Assembly (NCBI RefSeq): GCF_023703795.1
Contig: NZ_CP098518.1
Location: forward strand, 2,914,001 to 2,978,000
Direction of reading: 5' to 3'
Length of the DNA: 64,000 bases
From: Haloplanus sp. HW8-1
Lineage (GTDB): Archaea > Halobacteriota > Halobacteria > Halobacteriales > Haloferacaceae
In this document: piece after piece, positions 4,739 to 12,271 of the stretch
Layout of the letters: each line of letters begins with the position of its first letter
Numbering within the stretch: position 1 is the first letter of the stretch
The notes under the pieces: generated by a model
What the model was told of the DNA's origin: nothing
The model's input: only the letters and a program-made list of their open reading frames with translations
The model's database searches: none
Position numbers and translations under genes: made by a program

Positions 4739-5854
4739 TCAGCGCGGGGCCGGAAGCGCCGCGACCGCGTCGCGGACGGCCGCGTGAAACCGGTCGCTCG
4801 CGTAACGGTCGCGAGGGAGCGTCGGGCGGGCGTCCGCCTCGATCGCCGCGGCGACGGTCGCCACGGCGTCGTCCGTCGAGGCGAACAGACGGTCGGGGCG
4901 ACCGTCGAGCACCTCCCGCTGGCCGCCGGCGTCGGGGGCGAAGGCCACCATCCCCGCAGCGACGTACTCCGCGACCGCCATGCCGAAATGTTCCTCCGGC
5001 TTGCAGTTGAGCCCGTAGCGGTGGGTTTCGAGCAGTTCGTCGATCCGCTCGCGGGGCGCGTCCCGGTCGAGGTGGACGTACGATCGGTCGGCCGCGGCGG
5101 TGGCGACCCGCCGACCGTAGTCGGCGTAGATGGGCGAGGACGACCCGACCAGGTGGAGGTGGAGGTCGTGTCCCCGGGCGCGGACGCCGTCGACGATCCG
5201 GATCGCCCGGAGCGGCCGCTTGTCGGGTGCCAGTCGCCCGACGACCACGACTCCCGACTCGCGGTCGTCCCAGGGACGCGGATCGGGGGGCGGATCGACC
5301 GGCGGGAAACACACCGTCGGTCGGCGGCCGTAGGCGGTCTCGACGGCGTCGGCCGTCCATTCGGAGTTGGCGAGGAGGTGGGCGTCGGCGGGGAGTCGCC
5401 GGTGGCCGAGGCCGGCCAGTCGGCTCCAGAGCGAATCGAGGCGCCCCGCGTCCCCGGCCGACGTCGCCCGGCGGTTGAACTGCGGGTAGTGGACGTACTG
5501 GACCGATGGAAGCGGGAGGGCAAACTCGTTGGCGGTGCTGACGGCGGCGTCGAACCGGTCGGCGTGGCGGGCGAACAGGCGGCGAAGCAGGACGCTCCGG
5601 GGGGCCAGCGCCGGCCCGAACCGCTCGGGGAGGGCGTCGAACGCCCGGCAGACGAGGACGTTCCCCGGCGGTCGGTGGACGGGGACGTCGGCCGCGGTGT
5701 CGAACAGGCGATTCAGTTCGTCGAGCGACGACCGCGAGAGGGTAAAGAGCGTCACCTCGTGGACGGACTGCAGCGCTTCGCAGACGTGGAGACAGACGGT
5801 GTCGGCGCCGCCGCGGCCGTCGAGCGTGTTGTGGAGGACCGCCACCCGCGCCAT
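4739..5854 (-). CDS. Glycosyltransferase family 4
   Basis: A 371-residue GT-B fold enzyme that transfers a sugar from a nucleotide-sugar donor with retention. The N-terminal acceptor domain starts with VAVLHNTLDGRGGADTV (glycine-rich loop). The C-terminal donor domain has VVVVGRLAPDKRPLRAI and the EX7E-type motif in KPEEHFGMAVAEYVAAGM near residues 290-307. There are no membrane segments. It faces the oxidoreductase-led cluster at 6009 across a 154-bp intergenic region with two palindromes, so the two units may be co-regulated. The acceptor is unknown; a glycolipid or a decorated small molecule is possible given the phosphatidyltransferase in the facing operon. Confidence 0.88.
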   Translation of the reverse strand: MARVAVLHNTLDGRGGADTVCLHVCEALQSVHEVTLFTLSRSSLDELNRLFDTAADVPVHRPPGNVLVCRAFDALPERFGPALAPRSVLLRRLFARHADRFDAAVSTANEFALPLPSVQYVHYPQFNRRATSAGDAGRLDSLWSRLAGLGHRRLPADAHLLANSEWTADAVETAYGRRPTVCFPPVDPPPDPRPWDDRESGVVVVGRLAPDKRPLRAIRIVDGVRARGHDLHLHLVGSSSPIYADYGRRVATAAADRSYVHLDRDAPRERIDELLETHRYGLNCKPEEHFGMAVAEYVAAGMVAFAPDAGGQREVLDGRPDRLFASTDDAVATVAAAIEADARPTLPRDRYASDRFHAAVRDAVAALPAPR

Positions 5855-5878
5855 GCCGGTCCTGGGGCGGCGACCGTC

Positions 5879-5896
5879 TTAATACGATGTATCGTA
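5879..5896 (-). promoter_or_regulatory. TATA box and perfect palindrome before the glycosyltransferase gene
   Basis: On the minus strand CGTATTAAG lies about 28 nt before the ATG at 5854. Abutting it on the upstream side is the perfect inverted repeat TACGAT-GT-ATCGTA (5883-5896), placed where a repressor or activator would control TFB/TBP binding. The bound regulator is unknown. Confidence 0.55.
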
Positions 5897-5903
5897 AGTC
5901 ACT

Positions 5904-5941
5904 ACCGGTGGTTCGCCGAGACGGTCCGGCGAATCACCGGT
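5904..5941. repeat. Long inverted repeat in the divergent intergenic region
   Basis: The left arm 5904-5919 (ACCGGTGGTTCGCCGA) and right arm 5926-5941 (CCGGCGAATCACCGGT) are reverse complements with two mismatches over 16 bp, around a 6-nt centre. This could be an operator for the divergent genes or an RNA hairpin. It lies between the two start regions and not after a gene, so a terminator is unlikely. Confidence 0.6.
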
Positions 5942-6008
5942 AAACAGGTACAATAATCCGTATAACTCCGGGCGGGAGGCTTTTCACGACCGCCGCCCGC
6001 CGACGGGT

Positions 6009-7988
6009 ATGGAGTGTGCGTTCGTGGGCTGTGGCGCGGTAGCCGAGCAGTACGCCGCCGGCCTCGACGCGTCGTCGCTCTCGCCGGTCGCCGTCTGTGA
6101 CCTCGACGCCGACCGGGCGGCGTCGCTCGCGGCCGCCACGGGCGCGACGGCCTACACCGACCTGGACGCGTTGCTCGAGGCCACGGACGCGCCGCTCGTG
6201 GTGAACCTCACGAGCCACGGCGCCCACGCGACGGTGACCGAGCGGGCGCTCCAGGCGGGGCGGCACGTCTGGAGCGAGAAACCGCTCGCGATGGAGGCCG
6301 ACCGGGCGCGAGGGCTCCTCGACCTCGCGGCGTCGCGGGGGCTGGGGCTCGGCTGTGCCCCGATCACTCCGAGCGGCGAGAACCAGCGGCTCGCCCGGCG
6401 AGCGCTCGACGACGGCCGCCTCGGACCGGTCCGCCTGGGCTACGCCCACGCCCACGTCGGCCGCGTGACCGAGTGGCACGACGATCCCGGTTCCTTCCTC
6501 CGGGTCGGGCCGCTGTACGACGGGGCAGTCTACCCCTTGACTCTCCTCGTGGCGTGGTTCGGCCCCGTCGCGCGGGTGCGGTGCGCCGACGCCACCGATC
6601 CGTGGCCCGACCGCGAGGAGCGGTCACCCGAGCGACCCAGCCACGTCGAGGCGACACTCGACTTCGAGGCCGGGGCGCTAATCCGTCTCACTGCGAGCTT
6701 CTACGCCCCCCACCGGAGTCGAGAGTTCACGAGCCTCGAACTCCACGGCGACGACGCGTCGCTCTACCTCGGCGACGCGGGCGCGCAGGGCGGCGACGGC
6801 GAGAGTCACGTCTCGGTCGGCCGCGAGGGGCGGCACTACACCACGACCCCGCTCACCGCGCCGTCGCGGCGGACGGCCTACCTCGACGGGCCGGAGCGCC
6901 TCGCGGCGAGCGTCCGGCGGGGGCGGCCTGCCCGCGATACTGCCAGGCGGGCCGCCCACGTCGTCGCCGTCTGCAACGCGATCGAACGGGCGGCCGATCG
7001 GGGGGAGGCGGTCGCCGTCGACGCGGGGGGCGTCGAGACGCCGGACCGGCGCCGCGTGGTGTGGGGAACAAAGGGGGGACAGGACGCTGGAGTCGTCGGC
7101 CCGCCGACCGCCGCGCTCCGCCTGCCGCCGGTCGGGATCGGCTGTTCGCGCTACCGCGACGGGACGTACGTCGACCGCCGGGGCTCCATCGCGACGGCGC
7201 TGGACGCGGGCTATCGCCTCCTCGACTCCGCGGAACTCTACGGCAACGAGGCGCGGATCGGCGACCTCCTCGCGGCACCGGGGAGTCCCGACCGCGAGGC
7301 CCTGTTCGTCGCGAGCAAGGTGTGGAACACCAACCACGGCCACGTCGCGGAGGCCTGCGAAACGACGCTCGCGGATCTGGGGCTCGACCACCTCGACTGT
7401 TATATGATCCACTGGCCGGAGTCGTGGGCGTACACGGGGCCACTGCGACGGCTCGCAGCACTCCCCGTCGAGAAACAGGAGGCGCTCACCTTCCCCGAGA
7501 CGGCGGACGGCGATCGGGACCGGGCAGAGGTGAGCCTCGAATCGACATGGCGGGCGATGGAGGACCTCCACGACCGGGGGCTGGCGGCGACACTCGGGAT
7601 CTGTAACGTCGACCGGGAGATGCTTTCAGACCTGATCGAGTTCGCGCGTGTCCCGCCCGCCGTCGTCCAGGTGGCCCGGAACCCCTACCGGCCGCGCACC
7701 GATCTGGTCGAGTGGTGTCACGAGCGGGGGATCCGGGTGATCGCCCACTCGCCGTTGTCGGTACCGGGCCTGCTGGAAGAGCCAGCAGTCCGCGAGGGTG
7801 CCGCCGAGATGGGCGTCTCGCCGGCGGCGGCGGTCCTCGCCTGGCACGTCGGCGAGGGCGTCGTCCCCATCCCCGGCAGCACTGACCCCGACCACGTGGT
7901 CGAGAACCTCGGCGCCGCGACCCACCGCCTCCCCGAGGGGGCACGGGAGCGGTTCGCGGCGCTCGAAGACCCCGACTTCGAGCGATGA
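6009..7988 (+). CDS. Gfo/Idh/MocA oxidoreductase fused to aldo/keto reductase
   Basis: A 659-residue two-enzyme fusion. Residues 1 to about 345 form a Gfo/Idh/MocA dehydrogenase: Rossmann motif GCGAVAE near residue 7 and the EKP catalytic motif at 90-92. Residues about 370-659 form an aldo/keto reductase with the complete tetrad D406, Y411, K437, H468. They keep the AKR signature SKVWNTNHG and the NADP-side IPGSTDPDHVVENL segment. Both halves use NAD(P)H to interconvert hydroxyl and carbonyl groups, so the fusion may run two successive redox steps on one sugar- or polyol-like substrate. It is the first gene of a five-gene run with mostly overlapping ends (ATGA with the next). A misread stop between two genes is unlikely, since the linker is continuous and in frame. 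Confidence 0.9.
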   Translation: MECAFVGCGAVAEQYAAGLDASSLSPVAVCDLDADRAASLAAATGATAYTDLDALLEATDAPLVVNLTSHGAHATVTERALQAGRHVWSEKPLAMEADRARGLLDLAASRGLGLGCAPITPSGENQRLARRALDDGRLGPVRLGYAHAHVGRVTEWHDDPGSFLRVGPLYDGAVYPLTLLVAWFGPVARVRCADATDPWPDREERSPERPSHVEATLDFEAGALIRLTASFYAPHRSREFTSLELHGDDASLYLGDAGAQGGDGESHVSVGREGRHYTTTPLTAPSRRTAYLDGPERLAASVRRGRPARDTARRAAHVVAVCNAIERAADRGEAVAVDAGGVETPDRRRVVWGTKGGQDAGVVGPPTAALRLPPVGIGCSRYRDGTYVDRRGSIATALDAGYRLLDSAELYGNEARIGDLLAAPGSPDREALFVASKVWNTNHGHVAEACETTLADLGLDHLDCYMIHWPESWAYTGPLRRLAALPVEKQEALTFPETADGDRDRAEVSLESTWRAMEDLHDRGLAATLGICNVDREMLSDLIEFARVPPAVVQVARNPYRPRTDLVEWCHERGIRVIAHSPLSVPGLLEEPAVREGAAEMGVSPAAAVLAWHVGEGVVPIPGSTDPDHVVENLGAATHRLPEGARERFAALEDPDFER

Positions 7989-8755
7989 GCGGGGAGAACG
8001 TCCGCGGGCGGCGACTCGACGCCGCGGCGGTGACGGCGACGGCCGTGGCCGCCGCGGGCGTGGCCGTCGGCGGCTGGACCCTCGTCGCCGACGCGACCAC
8101 GCGCGCCGCCGCGAACCGCTGGACGGCGATCACGGGAGCGGTGCTGGCCTACGAGGTGGGTTTTCTCGCCCTCCACCTCGACGCCGGCCGACCGGGGGCG
8201 GCCGTCGCCCCGCCGAACCTCGTCACGCTGGGCCGGGGACTGCTGTACGCCGCCACGGCCGGGTTTCTGGTCGTCCCCCCGACCACACCGGCGGTGCGCT
8301 GGGCGCCCGCAGCCTGTTACGGCACCGGCGTCGCCCTCGATTTCGCCGACGGACGCCTGGCGCGACGGACGGGACGGACGACGCCGCTCGGGGCGAAACT
8401 CGATCACGCCTTCGATACGCTCGGATTCCTGGTCGCGCCGCTCGTCGGCGTCGCGTGGGGGCGGCTCCCACCGATCTACCTCTCGCTGTCGGCCGCGCGG
8501 TACGTCTATCTCCTCGGCGTCGGGTGGCGGCGCCGACGCGACCGACCGGTCGGCGACCTTCCCGAGAGCCGGGTGCGACGGCCGCTGGCGGCGCTCCAGA
8601 TGGGCTTTATCACCGTCGCGCTGGCGCCGGTCGTGCCGGCGTCGATCGTTCACCCGGCGAGTCTGGTCGCCCTCGCGCCGTCGCTCGCGACGTTCGTCCG
8701 CGACTACGTCGCCGTCACGGGGCGACTGGGCGAGACGGGCGGCAGTATGAAGTGA
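7985..8755 (+). CDS. CDP-alcohol phosphatidyltransferase family protein
   Basis: A 256-residue polytopic membrane protein with about six hydrophobic segments. It has the exact family motif D119-x2-D122-G123-x2-A126-R127-x8-G136-x3-D140-x3-D144 (DFADGRLARR... then LDHAFD), which binds the CDP-linked donor and two metal ions. Such enzymes join an alcohol to a phosphatidyl or archaetidyl group with loss of CMP. The start ATG overlaps the stop of the oxidoreductase fusion (ATGA). The alcohol substrate is unknown; the context suggests a product of the neighbouring redox enzymes rather than the housekeeping serine, glycerol or inositol phosphates. Confidence 0.88.
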   Translation: MSGENVRGRRLDAAAVTATAVAAAGVAVGGWTLVADATTRAAANRWTAITGAVLAYEVGFLALHLDAGRPGAAVAPPNLVTLGRGLLYAATAGFLVVPPTTPAVRWAPAACYGTGVALDFADGRLARRTGRTTPLGAKLDHAFDTLGFLVAPLVGVAWGRLPPIYLSLSAARYVYLLGVGWRRRRDRPVGDLPESRVRRPLAALQMGFITVALAPVVPASIVHPASLVALAPSLATFVRDYVAVTGRLGETGGSMK

Positions 8756-9831
8756 GCCGCGTCGCTAGAGCGGGCGTGACAGGGAGCGTCGACGACGCGG
8801 ACGAGTCAGGTGCCGTCGTCCCGCCGACCGGCCGGGCGCTGTACTTCACCGGCCCCCGGTCGATCAGCGTCGAACGGGAGTCGGTCAGTGCTCCGGGGCC
8901 CGACGAGGTGCTCGTGGAAACGCGTCTCTCCGCGGTGAGTTCGGGTACCGAACTCTTGATCTATCGGGGGGAGATGCCCCGCGACCTGCCCGCCGACACG
9001 ACGATCGACGCCCTTGACGGCGACCTCTCGTATCCGCTGAAGTACGGCTACGCGACCGTCGGCGACGTAGTGGCCCTGGGCGCGAACGTCGACGAGGCGT
9101 GGCGGGGGCGGCGCGTCTTCGCGTTCAACCCCCACGAGAGCCACTTCGTGGCGGCACCGGCCGACCTCGTGCCGGTGCCGGACGACGTGTCGACGGCGAC
9201 GGCCGCGCTGTTGCCGACGGCGGAGACGGCGACGACGTTCGTCATGGACGGGCGGCCGCGGGTCGGCGAGCGTGTCGTCGTCTTCGGCGCCGGGATGGTC
9301 GGCCTCGTCACGACGAGGGTGCTCTCGTCGTTCCCGCTGGAACGGCTGACGGTCGTCGAACCCGTCGCCCACCGACGGGAGATGGCCACCACCCTCGGCG
9401 CCGACGAGACGCTCCGGCCCGCGGAGGCGGCACGCATCGGCGACCGCGGCGGCCCGCCCGGGGCGGATCTGGCGTACGAACTCTCGGGGTCGCCGGCGAC
9501 GCTCGACGACGCCATCGACGCCGTGGGCTACGACGGCCGGATCGTCGTCGGATCGTGGTACGGGCGCAAGCGCGCCGAGACGGATCTCGGGGGCTTTTTC
9601 CACCGGAACCGGATCGACGTATCGTCGAGTCAGGTGAGCACGCTCGCCCCCGATCTCCGGGGGCGGTGGACGAAAGAGCGCCGACTGGACGTGGCGTGGG
9701 ATCGCCTCCGCGAACTGTCGACCGACCGCCTCGTCACGCACCGCATCGGCCTCGGGAACGCGGCCGAGGCATACCGACTGCTCGACGACGGCCCCGAGAA
9801 CGCGCTCCAGGTGTTGCTCACCTTCGAGTAG
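8752..9831 (+). CDS. BchC-like medium-chain dehydrogenase
   Basis: About 359 residues of the zinc-binding alcohol dehydrogenase superfamily. The Rossmann segment VVVFGAGMVGLVTTRVL is near residue 180, and the N-terminal GroES-like part has the SSGTEL signature of the BchC-type branch. The usual catalytic-zinc cysteine is replaced (SSGTELLIYRGEM), so it may be a zinc-free reductase or dehydrogenase. The start is uncertain: GTG at 8752 gives a 4-nt GTGA overlap with the preceding gene, and GTG at 8776 is the alternative. It belongs to the same tightly packed operon, and its substrate is unknown. Confidence 0.85.
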   Translation: MSRVARAGVTGSVDDADESGAVVPPTGRALYFTGPRSISVERESVSAPGPDEVLVETRLSAVSSGTELLIYRGEMPRDLPADTTIDALDGDLSYPLKYGYATVGDVVALGANVDEAWRGRRVFAFNPHESHFVAAPADLVPVPDDVSTATAALLPTAETATTFVMDGRPRVGERVVVFGAGMVGLVTTRVLSSFPLERLTVVEPVAHRREMATTLGADETLRPAEAARIGDRGGPPGADLAYELSGSPATLDDAIDAVGYDGRIVVGSWYGRKRAETDLGGFFHRNRIDVSSSQVSTLAPDLRGRWTKERRLDVAWDRLRELSTDRLVTHRIGLGNAAEAYRLLDDGPENALQVLLTFE

Positions 9832-9868
9832 GCCGAGCGTATAAGTCGCTGCCCGCCAATCGCCGGAT

Positions 9869-10246
9869 ATGTACCGGCTCTCGGTGTCGCGGGACTTCGT
9901 GGCCCAGCACTTCCTCACGGTCCCCGACCCCGGCCCCGAAGGCGAGGTCCACAGCCACCACTTCGAGGTGGCGGTGCGCTTCGCCGGCCCCGATCTGAAC
10001 GAGCATGGCTACCTCGTCGACATCGACGCGGTCGACGCCGCCCTCGACCGACTGGAAGCCCGGTATCGCGACGCCTTGCTGAACGACTTGCCGGAGTTCG
10101 AGGGCGCGAACCCGAGCGTCGAGCGGTTCGCACGCGTCTTCGGCGACCGGTTCGTCGAGGCCGTCCCGACCGAAGGACCCACGCGCCTGACCGTCCGGAT
10201 GTGGGAAGACGAGGACGCGTGGGCCAGCCACGAGCGAGCGCTCTGA
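9869..10246 (+). CDS. 6-pyruvoyl tetrahydropterin synthase / QueD family protein
   Basis: A 125-residue T-fold protein. It keeps the three zinc histidines: H14 in FVAQHFL and H28 and H30 in VHSHHFEV. It also keeps the family LVDIDAVDAAL strand-helix and the NPSVERFARVF segment. The catalytic cysteine normally four residues before the HxH pair is absent; glutamate occupies that place (E24), with E26 nearby. The protein contains no cysteine at all. A glutamate swap is known in PTPS-III enzymes that make 6-hydroxymethyl-dihydropterin, but the spacing is not identical. It has a 37-bp gap after the dehydrogenase and a stop/start overlap (TGATG) with the methyltransferase. Confidence 0.85.
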   Translation: MYRLSVSRDFVAQHFLTVPDPGPEGEVHSHHFEVAVRFAGPDLNEHGYLVDIDAVDAALDRLEARYRDALLNDLPEFEGANPSVERFARVFGDRFVEAVPTEGPTRLTVRMWEDEDAWASHERAL

Positions 10247-11073
10247 TGGACCACGCGGACGAGCGATATCTGGAGGCGAAACGGGTGGTCGACGACCGGG
10301 CGCTCGACCGGCGGGTACGGGACCGCCTCCTCGACGAACTCCCGCCGACCCCCCGGGTGCTGGAGGCGGGGTGTGGCACCGGTGTCACCGTCCCACGGCT
10401 GGTGGACTGGGGCGTGACCGCCGGCACGTACCGGGGCGTCGACAGCGACCCGGACGTCGTCGAGCGAGCGCGCGACCTGCGGATGGCCGACCTCGACGCC
10501 GACGACGCCGACGACGCCGACTTCCGCGTCGACGATCTGACCGTCCGCTTCGAGGCCGGCGACGCCCTCGACGCGTTCGACGGCGAATGGGCGGACCTCG
10601 TGGTGGCGGGGGCGTTCCTTGATCTCGTCCCCATCGACGACGCACTCGACGCCTTCGCCGGGGCGCTCGGCACCGACGGTCTGGTGTACGCGCCGATCAC
10701 CTTCGACGGGGAGACGATCTTTCAGCCGGACCATCCGGCCGACGACGCCGTCGTCGCGGCGTACCACGACGCCATCGACGACGAACCGGGGCGGGACGTC
10801 CGGGCCGGCCGGCACCTGCTCGACCGCTGTCGGGAACGCGACGGGGACCTGCTGGCGGCCGGGGCGTCGGACTGGATCGTCCACCCGCAGGACGGCGACT
10901 ACGCCGCCGACGAGCGTCACTTCCTCGGGACGATCCTCTCGTTCGTCGAGGCGGCGGTCGAGGGATCGGTCCCGGGTGCCGAGGCGTGGCTCCGGACCCG
11001 CCGGCGACAGCTCGACGCGGGAACGCTGACCTACGTGGCCCACGGGTACGACGTCCTCTATCGGCCCGGCTGA
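10246..11073 (+). CDS. Class I SAM-dependent methyltransferase
   Basis: A 275-residue protein with motif I VLEAGCGTGVTVPRL near residues 38-52, an acidic post-I loop (GVDSDPDVVERA) and a motif IV region (ADLVVAGAFLDLVP). The start ATG shares one base with the stop of the PTPS-like gene, so it is the last gene of the operon. The family is broad, covering small molecules, lipids and quinones. Here it probably modifies the unknown product of the cluster. The C-terminal half has no similarity I recognise and may be the substrate-binding part. Confidence 0.85.
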   Translation: MDHADERYLEAKRVVDDRALDRRVRDRLLDELPPTPRVLEAGCGTGVTVPRLVDWGVTAGTYRGVDSDPDVVERARDLRMADLDADDADDADFRVDDLTVRFEAGDALDAFDGEWADLVVAGAFLDLVPIDDALDAFAGALGTDGLVYAPITFDGETIFQPDHPADDAVVAAYHDAIDDEPGRDVRAGRHLLDRCRERDGDLLAAGASDWIVHPQDGDYAADERHFLGTILSFVEAAVEGSVPGAEAWLRTRRRQLDAGTLTYVAHGYDVLYRPG

Positions 11074-11105: not shown

Positions 11106-11471
11106 CTACGCTTCCCGGCGGTAGAGCACGACGAGGACCGCGATCAGCCCGGCCTGGACGATCTTGTCGGCGATGCCGCCCGGACCGAGGACGTCCGGCC
11201 AGTTCAGATAGAAATAGAGGACGATCTGCACGCCGGTAAACGGGATGCCGACGAGATAGAGCAGGCGGCGGCGGTAATCGAGGCGGAGAAGCAAGATGGC
11301 GACGAAGAAGGCGACGCCAGCGAGGACGAAACTGATGCCCTGGAGGGTGTCGATAGCGAGGACGCCGAAATAGAGGTGGACGATCCCCGTGATCGCCGCC
11401 AGCGCGATGCCGAGCCAGTGGAGTCGGGTGAGCGACGCCGTATCGAGGGTGGATTCGGACGTGGATGACAT
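11106..11471 (-). CDS. Four-helix membrane protein, haloarchaeal family
   Basis: A 121-residue protein with four predicted transmembrane segments (LGIALAAITGIVHLYFGVLA, GISFVLAGVAFFVAILLL, LLYLVGIPFTGVQIVLYFYL, and IVQAGLIAVLVVLY). The start is set at the ATG MSSTSES because a TATA-like ATTTAGG lies about 30 nt upstream; a GTG two codons earlier is possible. It resembles small DUF membrane proteins common in haloarchaea. No catalytic motif is visible and the function is unknown. It is divergent from the GT2 gene. Confidence 0.8.
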   Translation of the reverse strand: MSSTSESTLDTASLTRLHWLGIALAAITGIVHLYFGVLAIDTLQGISFVLAGVAFFVAILLLRLDYRRRLLYLVGIPFTGVQIVLYFYLNWPDVLGPGGIADKIVQAGLIAVLVVLYRREA

Positions 11472-11497
11472 TCCCACGCGCAGTAGGGAGCGAGCGA

Positions 11498-11524
11498 CCT
11501 AAATCGTCGGGTCGGAGATTTATG
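11498..11524. promoter_or_regulatory. Divergent promoter pair
   Basis: CCTAAAT (11498-11504, read as ATTTAGG leftward) serves the membrane protein at 11471, and ATTTATG (11518-11524) serves the GT2 gene whose ATG is at 11549. Both sit about 28-30 nt from their starts, as expected for leaderless mRNAs. Confidence 0.6.
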
Positions 11525-11548
11525 CACCGCCGGATCGTTCACGGGGGT

Positions 11549-12271
11549 ATGGGCGTCGAGTACGTTCGACGGGCGACCGATCCGGCGGTGTCGGTCGTCG
11601 TGCCGTCGGTCCCGACGTACGATCACGACCCGACGATGGCGTGTCTCCAGGCCCAGACGTTCGACGACCCCTACGAGATCCTCCTCGTCGACGACGGGAC
11701 GGTGGACCGGTCGACGGCGCGCAACCGGGGATTGGAAGCGGCATCGGCGGACGTGGTCGCGCTCACCGACGACGACACCAGGCCCCCGGCGGACTGGCTG
11801 GCGACGGCACGCGCGGCCTTCGAGGCGGATCCGGACCTGATCTGTCTGGAGGGGCCGATCTACGGGGGCTGTCGCAGTTTCGGCCCCCGGCACTACGTGG
11901 GGTGTAACCTCGCGGTCCGGCGGGCGGCCGCCCTCGACGTCGGCGGCTTCCGTTCGGCGTTCTCGGAGTGGCGCGAGGACGTGGAGTTCGGGTGGCGGAT
12001 GGAGGCGGAGGCGACGGGGCGCTGCCGGTTCGAGGAGTCGTTCCGGATGTGTCATCCATCGGTACCGCGGACGGCGTTCGATCCGGCACTGGAGCGGCGA
12101 CTGAAACGGGAGTATCCGGACCGCTACGACGAGGTGATGGACGCGACGGTGGGCCGACGCCTCTACCGTCGGGCGAGGGCCGTGGGACTCACCCAGCCGA
12201 TCCAGCGGATTGGAAACGCACTCCGGCGGCGGCTGCGGGGGAAATGTTCCGCGGCGGAACGCGTCGAGTGA
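11549..12271 (+). CDS. Glycosyltransferase family 2
   Basis: A 240-residue GT-A fold enzyme with the SVVVPSVPTYD opening strand, an ILLVDDGT nucleotide-binding turn near residues 40-50, an ALTDDDTRPP acidic metal-binding triad near residue 70, and a W-R-E-D-VEFGWRM acceptor motif near 140-150. Family members add sugars to lipids or polysaccharides. The C-terminus is basic (RRLRGK), with no obvious transmembrane anchor. The ATG at 11549 is chosen over 11522 from the TATA box spacing. It ends 20 bp before the convergent MFS gene. Confidence 0.85.
   Translation: MGVEYVRRATDPAVSVVVPSVPTYDHDPTMACLQAQTFDDPYEILLVDDGTVDRSTARNRGLEAASADVVALTDDDTRPPADWLATARAAFEADPDLICLEGPIYGGCRSFGPRHYVGCNLAVRRAAALDVGGFRSAFSEWREDVEFGWRMEAEATGRCRFEESFRMCHPSVPRTAFDPALERRLKREYPDRYDEVMDATVGRRLYRRARAVGLTQPIQRIGNALRRRLRGKCSAAERVE

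Follow-up and report, generated by a model that had tools for sequence, protein, structure and literature searches.

A haloarchaeal gene cluster with bacterial relatives: a possible route from GTP to a glycosylated, lipid-linked product

The 64,000-nucleotide stretch of Haloplanus sp. HW8-1 analyzed here (the window; contig NZ_CP098518.1, positions 2,914,001 to 2,978,000) carries a gene cluster characterized by a T-fold protein related to 6-pyruvoyltetrahydropterin synthase (PTPS). Its core consists of four plus-strand genes: a CDP-alcohol phosphatidyltransferase (7985-8755; PF01066, E 4e-16); a BchC-like dehydrogenase of the medium-chain dehydrogenase/reductase (MDR) type with a GTG start (8752-9831; PF00107; hereafter ADH); the PTPS-like protein (9869-10246; PF01242, E 4e-25); and a class I S-adenosylmethionine (SAM)-dependent methyltransferase (MT; 10246-11073; PF13649). 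These belong to one real, co-inherited and, in our reading, dedicated pathway common to archaea and bacteria, recognizable by its gene content, by the joint inheritance of its genes and by the conserved catalytic residues of its entry enzymes and of the phosphatidyltransferase. We are confident that this pathway starts from GTP by a step of the riboflavin type and is distinct from both riboflavin and F420 synthesis; for the complete scheme, from GTP entry through attachment of the product to a lipid, the chances appear about even. The initial annotation of this stretch had proposed a possible undescribed biosynthetic cluster of six genes, a guess now borne out by co-inheritance and recurrent gene neighborhoods, with all six open reading frames present and matching the named Pfam families. 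Its suggestion of a lipid-linked or glycosylated product is still the best guess, given a co-inherited phosphatidyltransferase with an intact motif, but it missed the entry from GTP.

Co-inheritance and arrangement of the gene set

Profile searches with each protein against 145 haloarchaeal genomes recovered a strong match to the PTPS-like protein in 88, leaving 57 without the cluster. The ADH and MT profiles found 86 and 87 genomes respectively, every one of which has the PTPS-like gene; the presence of these three genes is correlated at phi 0.97-0.99, even where they are unlinked. The phosphatidyltransferase profile matched in 84 genomes, 83 of them among the 88 (phi 0.92). A glycosyltransferase of the GT4 family, which we term GT4a, is found in 70 genomes, all with the PTPS-like gene, and is missing from 18 that have this gene, including the window's genus. 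There, a second type, GT4b (4739-5854, minus strand; PF00534/PF13692), adjoins in its place a 659-aa fusion of a Gfo/Idh/MocA dehydrogenase and an aldo-keto reductase (AKR; 6009-7988, plus strand; PF01408 at residues 2-112 and PF00248 at residues 394-645). Presence and absence are mixed within at least nine haloarchaeal genera and the association persists inside them; hence it does not reflect one old inheritance. The pathway is probably horizontally mobile. The initial annotation had mentioned similar gene sets in other haloarchaea, and the support for its cluster is now much stronger than it could have known.

The window combines two sub-clusters, ADH-PTPS-MT and GT4b-Gfo/AKR-phosphatidyltransferase. 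These lie apart in five haloarchaeal loci (L213-L216 and L229), in which GT4b again adjoins the Gfo/AKR and phosphatidyltransferase genes, as a GT4 does in Haloarcula pelagica. Separability of the genes in relatives had been named at the outset as grounds for giving up the cluster: the sub-clusters do separate, but the two are almost always present in the same genome and the claim survives. In split clusters the phosphatidyltransferase gene stays in contact with MT or GT4a: MT adjoins it, far from the PTPS-like gene, in the Haloferax-like genomes G040 and G076, and GT4a lies near it in G054 and G075. Within 6 kb of the PTPS-like gene, the range used for neighborhood counts over 59 PTPS-anchored haloarchaeal loci, Gfo is a minority partner (14/59), as is AKR (10/59), and the fusion is probably an accessory enzyme for sugar or polyol modification. 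A haloarchaeon without the PTPS-like gene has GCH IIa (see below), AKR, DUF7475, CDP-alcohol phosphatidyltransferase and PAP2 genes together (L223; G110:C1:1625000-1641000), which may be a decaying cluster or another use of its lipid half.

Entry from GTP and the bacterial relatives

The archaeal GTP cyclohydrolase IIa (GCH IIa; PF05165) is encoded near the PTPS-like gene in 24 of the 59 haloarchaeal loci, usually directly upstream of ADH. In Haloarcula pelagica the order is GT4, Gfo/Idh, phosphatidyltransferase, GCH IIa, ADH, PTPS, MT, which is the window's order, and in two broken-up clusters (G008, G009) GCH IIa remains beside GT4a. GCH IIa is found in 141 of the 145 haloarchaea. Two copies are present in 18 genomes; the cluster occurs in 16 of these, each of which keeps one of its copies inside it. 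The window's genome has a single GCH IIa, at 429308 (429 kb), 2.5 Mb from the cluster and outside the operon; in this organism the GTP-opening step would therefore be shared with riboflavin synthesis.

The gene set is not a haloarchaeal speciality but extends to bacteria. A search with ADH in named genomes retrieved homologs at about 50% identity from Anaerolineae, Desulfobacterota and one Methanotrichaceae metagenome-assembled genome (MAG). The fullest cluster, in Anaerolineae, reads phosphatidyltransferase, LPG_synthase_TM, GTP cyclohydrolase II (GCH II), RibD_C, ADH, in some cases an extra methyltransferase, PTPS, GT4a and MT; the other bacterial and methanogen clusters have fewer genes, with GCH II, mostly accompanied by RibD_C, upstream of ADH-PTPS-GT4-MT. 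GCH II and the RibD_C reductase occupy the place of GCH IIa in Chloroflexi and Desulfobacterota, and in several bacterial clusters the two form one fused chain. The presence of GCH IIa, or of GCH II with RibD_C, in the relatives' clusters gives good support for a starting point at GTP. The GCH II proteins of the clusters keep the zinc-binding cysteines, Asp126, Arg128 and Tyr105, except in Streptomyces, where Met stands at the Tyr105 position, and the nearest match of the RibD_C proteins is the archaeal diaminopyrimidinone reductase 2azn. In four Desulfobacterota contigs (L056, L066, L076, L078) RibD_C adjoins the BchC-like ADH, and no PTPS-like gene was found on the stretch examined.

Searching plasmids with the sequence of SCO6650, a PTPS-like protein of solved structure, yielded loci with subsets of the cluster genes in Streptomyces, Rhizobiaceae, Rhodobacterales, Methylosinus and Thiodictyon. 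Both GCH II and RibD_C occur near cluster genes in alphaproteobacteria, and a cyclohydrolase does in Streptomyces; the phosphatidyltransferase is part of the clusters of Chloroflexi, Streptomyces, Rhizobiaceae and Thiodictyon. On the Streptomyces fungicidicus plasmid p1 (L183, 11645-13138) the GCH II with Met at the Tyr105 position is accompanied by a divergent creatininase-family gene. GCH II enzymes with Met here go no further than the formyl compound, from which an enzyme of the creatininase family takes off the formate. By analogy the Streptomyces pair would resemble the archaeal split between ArfA and ArfB; the creatininase-family protein scores 37 bits against the ArfB model, whose cut-off is 180. 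A creatininase-family gene also lies near the phosphatidyltransferase gene in Haloarcula marismortui. On two further Streptomyces plasmids (L184, L190) SCO6650-type proteins occur without the cluster, beside genes for MEKHLA-domain, cupin and metallo-β-lactamase (MBL)-fold proteins. A cytochrome b gene lies in or beside the cluster in Peteryoungia and Thiodictyon (L186, 11055-11582; L187, 10528-11085), a neighbor that possibly represents a redox link.

Core enzymes, the proposed pathway and its alternatives

The AlphaFold2 model of the window's PTPS-like protein (pLDDT 97) and profile comparisons both place it nearest, among solved structures, to SCO6650 (3d7j; profile E 3e-18; fold TM-score 0.91, root mean square deviation 1.6), ahead of QueD. 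With QueD and the PTPS-I, -II and -III enzymes it shares the T-fold, the metal-binding histidine triad and the anchoring glutamate; it differs from them in having none of the motifs CxxxHGH, CxxxxxHGH and ExxHGH. Across 69 sequences H14, H30, N72, N81, P82, S83, E85 and E113 are invariant and H28 is conserved in 97%. The column of the catalytic Cys of QueD is occupied by Glu24 in 99%, and of the catalytic Asp-His pair the Asp alone is kept, with Ala at the His in the window protein. The haloarchaeal, Chloroflexi and Desulfobacterota proteins instead display the motif GPExxxHSH with three metal-binding His: it has Glu for Cys and HSH for HGH relative to the CxxxHGH of QueD and PTPS-I, and the QueD equivalog model of NCBIfam gives the window protein 41 bits against a cut-off of 89.25. 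A PTPS-III bypass enzyme was likewise rejected as a candidate: E24 occupies the Cys position, and the conserved Glu lies four residues before the first His of a motif that ends in HSH, outside ExxHGH.

The SCO6650 type, designated PTPS-IV, is listed with the signature FGPAQ and the neighbors PF00925 and PF01872, the former being called GTP cyclohydrolase I in that work (PMC5445326). These neighbors are present in the Chloroflexi and Desulfobacterota clusters, while haloarchaea use GCH IIa for the role of PF00925. The cluster protein is a sister of PTPS-IV. The two systems (PTPS-IV: SCO6650-type; COG0720/IPR007115) have in common a Cys-less T-fold protein beside an MDR, a GT4, a methyltransferase, GCH II, RibD_C and CDP-alcohol phosphatidyltransferase. 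PTPS-IV, however, has FGPAQxxHGA, with Ala in place of the third metal-binding His. In the window protein PGPEG occupies the FGPAQ columns, and FGPAQ itself is found in the SCO6650-type loci (L183-L192). As the signature is absent, we do not count the window's cluster as a member of the PTPS-IV orphan type but as a variant of it. A third form, in Chloroflexi, has FGPATxxHGH with three His and no Cys, and the cluster is present; in three Chloroflexota loci (L207, L210, L212) it is linked to RibD_C, ADH and GT4, with two copies in L212. Matches of the QueD type with CxxxHGH lack the cluster and Cys-less matches have it: loss of the catalytic Cys goes with cluster membership.

The ADH has an ordinary MDR fold, and an alignment with solved MDR enzymes reveals that across the whole family the Cys and His ligands of the catalytic zinc are replaced by Ser and Tyr100; it thus lacks the Cys and His of the zinc-dependent MDR alcohol dehydrogenases. 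The BchC bacteriochlorophyllide dehydrogenase model TIGR01202 is its best equivalog-level match (E 2e-25), but the score of 89.4 bits falls far below the cut-off of 291.25, and we know of no bacteriochlorophyll in haloarchaea. The names given in the initial annotation, a dehydrogenase and a PTPS/QueD-like protein, hence hold at the level of the fold, but the MDR is without its catalytic zinc ligands and the PTPS-like protein without its catalytic Cys and His; the window's three redox or T-fold proteins all stay below the curated equivalog cut-offs. The phosphatidyltransferase has the intact motif DxxDGxxARx8GxxxDxxxD, with D119, D122, G123, A126, R127, G136, D140 and D144 invariant, and its solved relatives include phosphatidylglycerol-phosphate synthase and cholinephosphotransferases. 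The MT displays the SAM motif G42xG44xG46, and a profile search with it returned generic SAM enzymes only, with no hint of a substrate. In profile comparisons GT4a comes closest to the cyanobacterial GT4 Tll1590 and to GT4 enzymes of the MshA/PimA type, matches that suggest no acceptor.

From these components we infer the order of the steps, the substrates of the later enzymes, the lipid linkage and the identity of the product as follows. In haloarchaea GCH IIa together with a deformylase, and in bacteria GCH II, would open GTP, yielding the formylamino- or diamino-pyrimidinone 5'-phosphate. A stand-alone reductase of the RibD_C type would then produce the ribityl form, on which the 2-amino group would be kept, as no deaminase is present. 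By analogy with its family, the T-fold protein would hold the 2-amino-4-oxopyrimidine via Glu113 and act on the pyrimidine at its His3 metal site, with the side chain being oxidized or reduced by the zinc-less MDR. Methylation and then glycosylation, by GT4a or GT4b, would follow, both steps being predicted directly by the enzymes present. Finally, the phosphatidyltransferase would most likely join the product to CDP-archaeol, or to CDP-diacylglycerol in bacteria; the result would be a glycosylated pyrimidine or pteridine anchored in the membrane.

Several observations weigh against this proposal. The window's operon itself has no cyclohydrolase, RibD_C reductase or GT4a. RibD_C is confined to the bacterial loci, and haloarchaea would need the chromosomal ArfC. 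Two of the three catalytic residues of the T-fold protein are lost, which means that QueD and PTPS are no guide to the reaction it catalyzes. The Fisher p-values for co-occurrence ignore shared ancestry, and the bacterial genomes are mostly MAGs, in which absences are weak. The phosphatidyltransferase gene is missing in 5 of the 88 PTPS genomes and was seen in none of the Desulfobacterota clusters; hence lipid attachment is perhaps not universal.

The alternative that survives best, at perhaps one chance in several, is a pterin route: the T-fold protein would perform a rearrangement like that of GTP cyclohydrolase I and close the ring of the diaminopyrimidinone to a dihydroneopterin, yielding a glycosylated and perhaps lipid-linked pterin such as one of the charged 'halopterins'. 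In this route RibD_C, which has the fold of dihydrofolate reductase, would serve as a dihydropterin reductase. The halopterins, unusual charged pterins, were reported from haloarchaea many years ago, and glycosylated pterins occur in other microbes, and the PTPS fold with its invariant Glu113 and metal-binding His is consistent with such chemistry. The RibD_C proteins, however, come closest to genuine diaminopyrimidinone reductases, and the ribityl product of those enzymes could not rearrange in this way. In addition, the catalytic Cys and His of the T-fold protein are lost.

Somewhat less probable is that the same GTP-derived pathway ends in a soluble glycosylated pyrimidine or pteridine, with the phosphatidyltransferase, Gfo/Idh-AKR and sulfatase-like genes being a traveling polar-lipid module. 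The separation of the two sub-clusters and the gaps in phosphatidyltransferase occurrence noted above agree with this. Against it, the phosphatidyltransferase tracks the PTPS-like gene across the haloarchaeal genomes, keeps its contact with MT or GT4a where clusters are split, and belongs to the clusters of four bacterial groups; attachment to a lipid thus remains our preferred reading.

A plain riboflavin operon, in which the cyclohydrolase serves vitamin B2 synthesis and the other genes are passengers, is improbable. In its favor, Haloferax volcanii becomes auxotrophic for riboflavin when HVO_1284 (arfA) is deleted (PMC8305020), and in Haloferax mucosum the cluster begins with arfA. In many relatives the cluster has the enzyme that opens GTP in common with the archaeal riboflavin pathway (ArfA, ArfB, ArfC), and in bacteria also a reductase of the same kind, but its final steps belong to modification enzymes and a phosphatidyltransferase, and no deaminase, RibB, RibH (lumazine synthase) or riboflavin synthase was seen in it. 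Moreover, 16 genomes have a second GCH IIa paralog inside the cluster, and the 57 cluster-less haloarchaea contrast with the near-universal GCH IIa. An additional full-length RibD occurs in three Desulfobacterota; two of these also keep a second GCH II elsewhere. We reject this explanation on the paralogous cyclohydrolases and on the full RibD encoded elsewhere.

PTPS-IV has been stated, on the basis of unpublished work, to act in F420 synthesis (PMC5041015), and the F420 ligase is indeed present in haloarchaea, in the methanogen and in most Chloroflexi tested. The ligase, however, occurs in 145/145 haloarchaea, 57 of them cluster-less, and is absent from six Desulfobacterota genomes and one Rhodothermaceae genome that have the cluster, all MAGs; even so, with six absences in agreement, a general role in F420 synthesis is unlikely. 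With this distribution ruling it out in that capacity, we hold an F420 function very improbable. Queuosine or archaeosine synthesis, suggested by the automatic label '6-carboxytetrahydropterin synthase' and by fold and family only, is close to refuted by the QueD score, the missing CxxxHGH and the absence of queC, queE or queF as recurring neighbors of the PTPS-like gene.

Layout of the locus and significance

On the plus strand the Gfo/AKR gene overlaps the phosphatidyltransferase gene, and the latter ADH, by 4 nt each, while PTPS and MT overlap by 1 nt. The 37 nt between ADH and PTPS contain a TATA-like stretch, and hence the genes are not certain to form a single transcript. ADH may in fact begin downstream of 8752, as homologs start near residue 26 and residues 1-20 are poorly modeled. 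Downstream, on the minus strand, a small DUF7475 membrane protein (11106-11477; PF24287) is a frequent partner, recurring in 35 of the 59 haloarchaeal loci, where it mostly adjoins the phosphatidyltransferase gene. This recurrence makes it a seventh member of the set, one that the initial annotation had overlooked. A GT2 glycosyltransferase gene (11465-12271) with weak similarity to MftF adjoins the cluster in Haloplanus-type genomes only, and no recurrence was seen elsewhere.

Two palindromes had been described between the divergent GT4b and Gfo/AKR genes. The first (5881-5963) is a real, imperfect palindrome of about 82 nt, but at the second site (5971-6001) there is a weak 10-nt hairpin, and the repeat is not specific to the locus: at least 17 further copies, 74-94% identical, are dispersed in the genome, several at borders of open reading frames. 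We therefore rejected the palindromes as an operator or terminator of the cluster, and the repeat is probably unrelated to the pathway. An Rfam search with it gave no match, and it resembles a haloarchaeal repetitive extragenic palindromic (REP)- or miniature inverted-repeat transposable element (MITE)-like element.

Among the papers searched, none describes the whole gene set. The 7-azapteridine (toxoflavin) pathway offers a likeness, as there a second, dedicated GCH II and a RibD-type enzyme feed a specialized product that is then methylated; to our knowledge, it differs in having no T-fold protein, glycosyltransferase or phosphatidyltransferase. PTPS-IV proteins, including SCO6650, have been known only as orphans, and the sole statement found on their role, that concerning F420, is unsupported by the gene distribution. 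The gene set predicts a compound derived from guanine that would be methylated, glycosylated and lipid-linked, and this reading would correct the automatic '6-carboxytetrahydropterin synthase' (queuosine) annotation seen on most of the plasmid-borne members examined. The haloarchaeal form is tractable: the cluster is present in a Haloferax relative, and some genomes have a separate GCH IIa, so that it could be deleted without loss of riboflavin synthesis. More tentatively, haloarchaea and several bacterial phyla might share membrane-anchored pyrimidine or pteridine cofactors, an undescribed class of cofactor lipids derived from GTP via a riboflavin intermediate, glycosylated, fixed to a phospholipid head group and possibly redox-active.

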